Positions 55,650 through 57,785 of a stretch of DNA of 64,000 nt are shown here, piece by piece; the first letter of the stretch is position 1; each line of letters starts with the position of its first letter. Under the pieces are notes generated by a model that ran no database searches, was not told the DNA's origin, and saw only the letters and a program-made list of their open reading frames with translations. Location of the stretch: assembly GCA_947626095.1 (NCBI GenBank), contig CANQQV010000002.1, forward strand, positions 97,092 to 161,091. The letters are read 5' to 3'. This DNA is from an uncultured Bacilli bacterium (GTDB lineage Bacteria > Bacillota_I > Bacilli_A > RF39 > UBA660). Made by a program: the position numbers and the translations under genes.

Positions 55650-55675
55650 AAAGACATCAAATTGATGTCTTTTAA
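55647..55675. terminator. Bidirectional terminator between methyltransferases and transglycosylase
   Basis: Ten-base stem AAAAGACATC/GATGTCTTTT with loop AAATT; it overlaps the stop codons of both convergent genes and has T-runs on each strand. Confidence 0.85.
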
Positions 55676-57018
55676 TTAATATTATCGTGAATATATTTAA
55701 AAAAATCTATTGGAAATTTATTTATTAAATTTTCAAAACTTTCAAATTTTGATACTAATTTAGTTAATTTACAATGTTGCCATATTGAATGGCAATTCAT
55801 TATTTGTCTGGCATAATAATAGTATTCATCCGATATATATTTTTTAGAGTATAATTCTTTTAAATTGTTAGTATTATTTATTAACTTACAAGCAGGACAT
55901 CCACATAATTGGATATCATTATCTACTTCATTTATTTTATAATAGTCAAATTTATAATTATTATTTATTATTTCTAAATTGTTATCAATCATCCCAGGAA
56001 TAAATTTTGAAAAACTTTCTCTTGCTTGTTTGTCAAAAACAATAGATGATGATTCATTATTTCCATCATATGCTCGTCTTCCAGGTGTCTGGCAATCAAA
56101 AGAAGTAGCACCATTTAATACTAATGATGGTATATTATCTTTATTGCCACCACCTAATACATGTATTGGTTTTTCACCAACCACATTTTTTACAATCTTT
56201 AATGCTTTAGTAACTAAATGAGTATTTTTTAAATTACCTTTACAATCATCAAACCAAGAATCATCAGCATTTTTACTACTTGCAATGCCACCTAAGGCAT
56301 ATCCGAAGAAATTTAAATTATTATTTTTTTCTTTATTTACAATATAATTAATATATTCTTGATATTCATCAGGGGTTTTACCATGAACTGTTGCATAAAC
56401 TTTAGGATAGTAATTTTTATGCACTTTTAGATATTCAATTGTTTTATCTAAAAGTATTTTATTAAAATCATTTTCCATTAATCGATTTATTTCTGTTTTT
56501 AAATTTTCATCAGAACATTCAGAATCTTTAAAAGTGTATTTCCCACCCAAATCAAATCCTATTACAAAATCAAATTTATACTTTTGAGCAAAATCATAAT
56601 ATTCATACATTTTTTCAATCATTGTTTCTTCTACTGTGTTATGTAACTTTATTTTCCCTCTAATAATATCATTCAATATGTTTCTTGCTCCTGAATCTAG
56701 TAAATATATATTGTTATTATAATCATATTTTCCAGGAATATGTTCTTTGCAAATGTATTTTTCCTTATATATCATATCATTTCTGGTGAATTCTAAAAAC
56801 TCAGAAAAAGATTGATAATTATTTAATTTAGATAGCCATTTTGTAGCAAATTTTGGATATTTTAAATAGTAATAATTATATAATGTTGGAATTCCATTAT
56901 ATAAATCTAAATATACTGTTTCACGATATTTATCACTTCCGCCACCACCTAGGTTAGATATCCAAAAGAAACTAGGAACAACATATTTTTTGTTATTAAT
57001 CATCATTACTTGTTTCAT
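55672..57018 (-). CDS. TGT/DpdA-like 7-deazaguanine transglycosylase
   Basis: 448 residues. All landmarks of the tRNA-guanine transglycosylase fold are visible: D108 in YLLDSGARN (canonical TDSGG), D156 in VIGFDLGG, and G243-G244 in ALGGI (canonical LGGL). The nucleophile Asp D308 is in SFDCQTPGRR (canonical FDCV.PTR), and a zinc site C372-G-C374-P-A-C377 has His near 410. Such enzymes swap guanine for a 7-deazaguanine: TGT/ArcTGT in tRNA, DpdA in DNA. Divergence from TGT, mobile context and coupling to a nuclease-like gene (4-base ATGA overlap) favour a DpdA-like role on DNA. No preQ0-synthesis genes are in the window, so it would depend on host or salvaged precursor. tRNA modification remains possible. 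Confidence 0.85.
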   Translation of the reverse strand: MKQVMMINNKKYVVPSFFWISNLGGGGSDKYRETVYLDLYNGIPTLYNYYYLKYPKFATKWLSKLNNYQSFSEFLEFTRNDMIYKEKYICKEHIPGKYDYNNNIYLLDSGARNILNDIIRGKIKLHNTVEETMIEKMYEYYDFAQKYKFDFVIGFDLGGKYTFKDSECSDENLKTEINRLMENDFNKILLDKTIEYLKVHKNYYPKVYATVHGKTPDEYQEYINYIVNKEKNNNLNFFGYALGGIASSKNADDSWFDDCKGNLKNTHLVTKALKIVKNVVGEKPIHVLGGGNKDNIPSLVLNGATSFDCQTPGRRAYDGNNESSSIVFDKQARESFSKFIPGMIDNNLEIINNNYKFDYYKINEVDNDIQLCGCPACKLINNTNNLKELYSKKYISDEYYYYARQIMNCHSIWQHCKLTKLVSKFESFENLINKFPIDFFKYIHDNIN

Positions 57019-57785
57019 TTTATCATGCTCCTAATGATCTCTACAAATTCCTCTAAGGTTCCCATTTCTAGAAGTTTTGAATATATCTTTTCTTTATATA
57101 TTGATTGAGGATTTTTTTCAAAATCTCCTTCGCGTTCTTGTCGTTGAAAAATTTTTTCGTTTATAAGAGCATTTTTTACTTGTTCACTTGTTTCAAAATA
57201 TATTCCTTTTAAACAAGGATAATCTATCCAGTGGATATAAAAGACCGGTCTTTCAATATCTGATTCGATAATTTCCAATTGCCTTTCTATCTTTTTGTAA
57301 TCTAATGTAGCACTACTTTCATAACAATATCTATTTATTTTGTTTATTGCTGAAATAAAAGGCGCACAATGATATTTTACTTCAAAATATGCAATTATTC
57401 CCTTATCTTTACCTAAAATCATACAATCAGGGTATTTTTTATTTGTTTTGTCCCCATGAACTGCTTTTATTTTTAAATGATTGGTAAAATAATCTATTAA
57501 TATTTCTTCAAATAATTGTCCCATAATTACATCATATTTAATATGGCTTTTGTTTCTGGGGTTCATGAAATACTGACCACATTTTTTACAAACATCTTTT
57601 AATTCAGGAATTTTTTCTTTTAAGACTTTAACTGGAAAAGGATTTTCATTTTGATTATTCTTAAACATATTATCAAAACAATCTTTATTGAATTCAGAAT
57701 ATAATAATTGATTTTCAAAAGTTGGTACATTCTTAAAAAAGTCTGTTAATTTATCTTTATACAATTCAAGTATTTCCTCATACAT
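57015..57785 (-). CDS. PD-(D/E)XK nuclease-fold protein, putative restriction endonuclease
   Basis: 256 residues. Core motif: P119-D120, fourteen residues, then E135-V-K137 (YPD...FEVK), with a helix carrying E93/E94 upstream. This is the PD-(D/E)XK metal-dependent nuclease signature. A possible zinc knuckle CKKCG near 66-70 precedes it. No known restriction enzyme subfamily is recognised. It is the first gene of an operon with the transglycosylase, behind a -10 TATAAT (minus strand, 57806-57811) and GAAGGTG. Likely the effector of the system; the cut or modified site is unknown. Confidence 0.75.
   Translation of the reverse strand: MYEEILELYKDKLTDFFKNVPTFENQLLYSEFNKDCFDNMFKNNQNENPFPVKVLKEKIPELKDVCKKCGQYFMNPRNKSHIKYDVIMGQLFEEILIDYFTNHLKIKAVHGDKTNKKYPDCMILGKDKGIIAYFEVKYHCAPFISAINKINRYCYESSATLDYKKIERQLEIIESDIERPVFYIHWIDYPCLKGIYFETSEQVKNALINEKIFQRQEREGDFEKNPQSIYKEKIYSKLLEMGTLEEFVEIIRSMIK

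Follow-up and report, generated by a model that had tools for sequence, protein, structure and literature searches.

We describe a cassette of four genes in the genome of an uncultured Bacilli bacterium that we tentatively read, at somewhat short of an even chance, as a rare, mobile, type-II-like restriction-modification (RM) system, in which the restriction arm would consist of a putative PD-(D/E)XK nuclease and a TGT-superfamily (transglycosylase-like) protein acting on guanine. The cassette takes up about 3.7 kb of the window (the whole stretch of DNA analysed, 64,000 nucleotides long). Two methyltransferase genes on the plus strand, here called M1 and M2, converge with the TGT-like gene and the nuclease gene on the minus strand. 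The same four genes, in identical order and orientation, are found in Inordinaticella fortuita 4B (genome G294, locus L007), which belongs to a different family of the same class.

Organisation and conservation of the cassette

M1 (54089–54892, plus strand, 267 aa; Pfam N6_N4_Mtase, 212.8 bits) and M2 (54876–55649, plus strand, 257 aa; Pfam, 180.6 bits) overlap each other and encode paralogous TSPPY-type DNA methyltransferases with 35% identity. The TGT-like gene (55672–57018, minus strand, 448 aa) is preceded by the gene for the putative nuclease (57015–57785, minus strand, 256 aa), which leads this two-gene operon; the two share four bases, ATGA. A near-symmetric terminator-like hairpin, to which no strand is assigned, lies between the convergent M2 and TGT-like genes (55649–55673), and there are 3 such sites where 1.2 are expected (sd 1.3). 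Ahead of M1 there is a promoter-like site, TTGACC-17-TATAAT (54038–54066, plus strand, 11 of 12 matches), of a kind that is not in excess in the region (42 against 44.7 in shuffled sequence); TTGACC also precedes M1 in the Inordinaticella locus.

The DNA similarity between the two loci sets in 64–69 bases ahead of M1 (window 54025), and at the protein level the alignment covers all four genes, up to window 57782. Over aligned codons the identity is 72% for M1, 75% for M2, 45% for the TGT-like protein and 55% for the nuclease. The M1 counterpart (L007 5162–5932) is 72% identical and the M2 counterpart (L007 5948–6709) 77% over 242 aa, or 74.6% over 252 aligned codons. In all four genes it is the third codon position that varies most, with mismatches of 0.40, 0.31 and 0.53 at the three positions of the TGT-like gene, which indicates constraint at the protein level. 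The TGT-like protein and the nuclease have diverged faster than M1 and M2, and restriction genes often diverge faster. The higher conservation of M1 and M2 could mean that they form a separate unit. A sequence-only reading of this DNA had proposed a new modification or restriction system made up of the overlapping pair alone. The pair, its ATGA overlap and its kept TGT landmarks are as described there, the DSG, FD and zinc landmarks being present in both copies, and the RM setting, the mobility and the distinctness from the housekeeping TGT are supported; the two-gene unit was rejected, as both loci hold M1 and M2 together with the TGT-like and nuclease genes. The methyltransferases show the highest conservation and accompany the pair, so the unit is taken to be four genes. 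In two loci, then, methyltransferases stand beside a putative restriction nuclease and are conserved with it as a unit, the arrangement by which type II RM systems are recognised.

A mobile island in a tRNA gene

The cassette lies inside a 9.7-kb island that splits a host tRNA-Arg(CCT) gene at the anticodon loop. The 5' half of this gene remains at the left junction (53134–53173, plus strand), ending in the 9-base core CCTCCTAAG at 53165–53173, and the displaced 3' half begins at the right junction (62907–62952, plus strand) with the same core at 62907–62915. Both halves align to an intact tRNA in a genome of the same genus (L032), where the left side is related to window 51.9–53.2 kb and the right side to the gene at 62983–63465, which is VanZ-like by eye. 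In another genome of the genus (L031) an intact tRNA joins both sides, and other sequence of about 1.1 kb precedes the relative of the 62983–63465 gene. The island ends appeared only by this comparison with relatives, and a repeat search with a minimum length of 16 did not show them. A complete tRNA-Arg(CCT) found by ARAGORN within the island (53249–53328, plus strand) is divergent and presumably replaces the lost host function, and a tyrosine integrase of 386 aa (61605–62765, plus strand; Pfam Phage_integrase, 118.2 bits) is encoded near the right end. The island of the window is thus mobile. Its cassette stands directly after a tRNA gene, and about 1.1 kb separate that of Inordinaticella from the tmRNA gene before it (L007 3737–4086).

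Two neighbouring genes are worth recording. At 59012–60103 on the minus strand the island encodes a 363-aa protein with no Pfam match of weight and with RNLISHG near its C-terminus, which we take to resemble the HEPN Rx4-6H motif, and this protein is possibly further defence cargo. Beside the Inordinaticella cassette there is an HNH-type gene (by eye; L007 4246–4965) that is apparently broken by a stop or a frame change.

Distribution of the cassette

That the gene pair should be counted elsewhere had been proposed in the sequence-only reading, and the pair does recur, in Inordinaticella. Beyond that, copies are scarce. The nuclease matched 2 of 395 class genomes, these being the window's own and that of Inordinaticella, and its alignment matched 1 of 395 genomes of the Inordinaticella class. 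The TGT-like protein matched 2 of 288 order genomes, the window's own included; the second of these (G194) was discounted, the match being one of 26 bits in a frame of 100 aa. Its alignment matched 2 of 392 phylum genomes. These whole-genome samples overlap, none is exhaustive, and the window's own genome is counted where it is listed.

Among viral contigs, four protein or alignment scans returned 3, 9, 343 and 263 pattern stretches, none of them a relative by tblastn, and three further patterns returned 0 stretches. Another 5 viral stretches from one pattern were taken as chance, with stop codons around the motif; the sole tblastn trace among them was a match of 9 residues (E 0.46, L069). A tblastn search of phages and plasmids gave no relative. 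In genome contigs a protein scan gave 17 pattern stretches, none a relative, and a second scan gave 2, namely the Inordinaticella copy and a Psychrobacter gene that we take to be a tRNA-dihydrouridine synthase. The first of these scans missed the Inordinaticella copy although it is present in the collection, so pattern scans are insensitive and it is chiefly the whole-genome samples that justify the word "rare". A search of the open-access literature, as far as its text was available, found no description of this four-gene set; subscription papers and preprints lay outside the search.

The methyltransferases and their relatives

At E <= 1e-30, 17 plasmid records match M2 and 16 match M1, and the identity of M1 and M2 to their relatives is 33–40%. 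Five plasmid neighbourhoods from the M2 list were inspected: two adjoin an enzyme of the BglII/BstYI family, one an enzyme of the ScaI family, and two are without a named restriction enzyme, the family having been confirmed by Pfam for the two restriction enzymes scanned. With a restriction enzyme adjacent in three of five plasmid loci, the operon of the cassette occupies the place where a restriction gene often stands. M.BglII and M.ScaI make N4-methylcytosine. In the class, an alignment of M2 at E <= 1e-40 matched 5 of 95 genomes, namely both genomes with the cassette and three more; in one of these three a 254-aa ORF with no Pfam match at E <= 0.01 overlaps and precedes the methyltransferase gene. 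The TGT-like protein and the nuclease are absent by tblastn from the fetched stretches of all eight relative loci (five plasmid, three genome; best E 0.075).

A different arrangement of possible interest is seen in the other two of the three further class genomes, where a relative of M1 and M2 adjoins a DndB-like protein or one resembling it: at L072 5912–7609 the similarity to DndB has an E value of 3.1e-6, which is under the cut-off, and at L073 3683–5449 the adjoining protein is, by eye, similar to that of L072.

The TGT-like protein and the nuclease

Assigning the TGT-like protein to a family depends on the method. It reaches 26.8 bits with Pfam PF01702, barely over the gathering score of 26.3, and the Inordinaticella protein, with 16.4 bits, is below the cut-off. 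As a housekeeping enzyme it was rejected: with the TIGR00430 equivalog it scores 24.2 bits against a cut-off of 306.75, and the window genome (G000) has a separate tgt gene (G000:C21; 517.5 bits by Pfam). The sequence-only reading would have given up its proposal on clustering with housekeeping tRNA TGTs together with the lack of another tgt in the genome, or if the pair occurred nowhere else; the separate gene excludes that lack, and the second genome shows that the pair does occur elsewhere.

DSG, SFD/GFD, GYxxGG, FDC..P.R.A and CxCxxC...H are recognisable in the alignment. D108, D156 and D308 and the zinc set C372, C374, C377 and H410 are kept in both copies; the roles of the catalytic Asp pair and of the zinc ligands are assumed from the TGT literature. 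With only two copies found, the keeping of these landmarks goes but a short way towards proving catalysis. In the Inordinaticella copy T replaces C309, and the position of the Q of TGT's QGG holds H or M, so the expected base pocket differs from that of TGT.

Marking of DNA in the manner of DpdA had been proposed earlier, and here sequence and structure point in different directions. By sequence the protein is nearer to bacterial TGT than to phage DpdA, and by fold search DpdA comes first. Profile comparison gave a probability of 1.2 against 11 DpdA-like proteins and of 30 against the TGT of the window genome, from a thin profile of two sequences. When the PDB was searched by hmmsearch with these two sequences aligned, TGTs came up only at E >1 and the DpdA structure 7UI4 was absent; an alignment of phage DpdA found 7UI4 at E 3.1e-4. 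The best Foldseek match is 7UI4 and the VIA list is topped by TGTs, for a structure model of low confidence, as are the models of both operon proteins. Around the putative nucleophile, TSFDCQTP in the window resembles TSIDSTTP in 7UI4, with TS-x-D-x-x-TP in common.

None of the PADLOC models matched the TGT-like protein at E <= 1. This includes the DpdA profile PDLC02807, which had no match in G000 at 1e-5 either and which is insensitive, a phage protein annotated as DpdA getting only 16 bits. In the class it gave weak matches (24.6–29.7 bits) in 7 of 395 genomes (G511, G621, G601, G475, G487, G440 and G416; L047–L053). The one of these seven that was checked (L053) is an ordinary housekeeping TGT with 509.8 bits, so the profile can mislabel ordinary tgt genes.

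The nuclease has a D...E-x-K motif (D120, E135-V-K137) in both copies. PADLOC gave it one marginal match (E 0.05), and matches of its profile to PPR and solenoid proteins were dismissed as repeat matches.

A proposed mechanism and its alternatives

In the favoured reading, M1 and M2 would protect the host copies of a recognition sequence, probably with one enzyme for each strand of an asymmetric site and probably by making N4-methylcytosine. The operon of nuclease and TGT-like protein would be the restriction arm. Working on DNA and not on tRNA, the TGT-like protein would engage a guanine at an unmethylated site through its conserved aspartates and, like a TGT, open the N-glycosidic bond, leaving a swapped base or an abasic site, and the nuclease would then restrict by cutting at or beside the altered position. 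Guanine-swapping chemistry may in this way serve for attack on foreign DNA or for its recognition. The most specific form of the proposal, in which a covalent intermediate with an aspartate serves to release or exchange the unmethylated guanine and the partner nuclease cuts there, we consider conceivable but on the doubtful side. A restriction arm is favoured because the TGT-like gene shares an operon with a nuclease gene, two protective methyltransferases are at hand, the aspartates are kept and the supply of precursors is weak.

The supply of precursors bears most directly on self-marking of the dpd kind, in which salvaged preQ1 or preQ0 would be put into host DNA, the nuclease would cut unmarked DNA (or marked phage DNA), and the methyltransferases would be a second, linked modification. 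Neither the window genome, which is 91% complete, nor that of Inordinaticella gave a match to QueC or to the YhhQ family (PF02592). A QueT-type transporter is found in Inordinaticella and had no match in the window genome, and QueA is present in both; together with the housekeeping TGT of the window genome it suggests that preQ1 is handled. It thus seems that preQ1 chemistry exists in both hosts and preQ0 synthesis does not, which weakens a role in dPreQ0 marking and is compatible with the use of salvaged preQ1. The fold match to 7UI4 and the likeness around the nucleophile favour such marking; the scan of ten island ORFs listed no dpd partner (DpdB, DpdC or others), the insensitive PADLOC DpdA profile stayed unmatched, and two protective methyltransferases are already part of the cassette. 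Marking like that of DpdA is therefore possible but weakened, and we hold it to be unlikely; the earlier interpretation as a whole is partly supported.

The altered residues around the expected base pocket, and the overlap of the genes that encode the pair, would also fit a TGT-like protein that is catalytically idle and serves a two-subunit restriction enzyme as its recognition subunit or clamp, reading guanines and leaving the cutting wholly to the nuclease. Both copies keep the three aspartates alongside the zinc ligands, however, and a scaffold would have no use for the aspartates; we think this explanation quite unlikely. Still less probable is an abortive system directed at RNA, with the TGT-like protein acting on tRNA, the nuclease as an accessory or toxic enzyme and the methyltransferases as an independent neighbour: tRNA TGTs are nearest by sequence in the comparisons run and the zinc site is TGT-like, but both known loci hold all four genes side by side, and relatives of M1 and M2 occur in RM gene pairs in three of the five plasmid loci. 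That an ordinary RM gene set lies by chance beside a decaying tgt paralogue unrelated to it, as the low TGT score and the finding of only two copies might suggest, is hardly credible, being largely contradicted by the identical gene order in two hosts, the open frames of both copies and the constraint seen at the codon positions.

Comparison with known systems

The cassette shares with type II RM systems of the BglII/BstYI or ScaI kind methyltransferases of 33–40% identity and an adjacent restriction gene. It differs from them in having two methyltransferases, and in that a nuclease gene and a TGT-like gene fill the place of restriction. The TGT-like protein has the zinc set and the other motifs of bacterial TGT, but falls far under the housekeeping cut-off, has lost the Q of QGG and coexists with a separate tgt.

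The dpd systems, represented by DpdA of Salmonella Montevideo (7UI4), are alike in the TGT superfamily, in the DSG-like and catalytic-Asp motifs and in the defence-type setting, and unlike in that they form a large cluster, whereas here two methyltransferases stand with one small nuclease. In the available parts of the sources, DpdA and DpdA2 are described in a 2019 phage study, the known relatives of TGT that act on DNA (DpdA) are said to put marks into it, and a 2025 review of host-dependent RM ties a 7-deazaguanine derivative to restriction, a restriction activity that is not further explored there. A TGT homologue in a defence operon is also reported, in the part of a 2026 study at hand (PMC12839542), for a subset of BREX-related capture (BRC) systems. 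These differ in having PglZ, a HerA/FtsK translocase and DUF6079, and no Pfam or PADLOC match to any of the three was listed for the ten island ORFs.

The favoured reading has a target in the N-glycosidic bond and protection by methylation in common with the base-excision restriction enzymes of the R.PabI family, according to the accessible portion of a review of that family (PMC10273834). The R.PabI family has the HALFPIPE fold; no match of this kind was listed by Pfam for the island ORFs, from a library that may lack the family. In the main text of PMC10273834, "transglycosylase" and "TGT" have 0 occurrences. If the most specific form of the proposal is true, base-excision restriction would have been invented a second time, outside the PabI family and unrelated to it, with a base-exchanging enzyme turned from the marking of DNA to attack. 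The cassette would either bring TGT chemistry into attack or amount to a 7-deazaguanine system far smaller than the dpd clusters.
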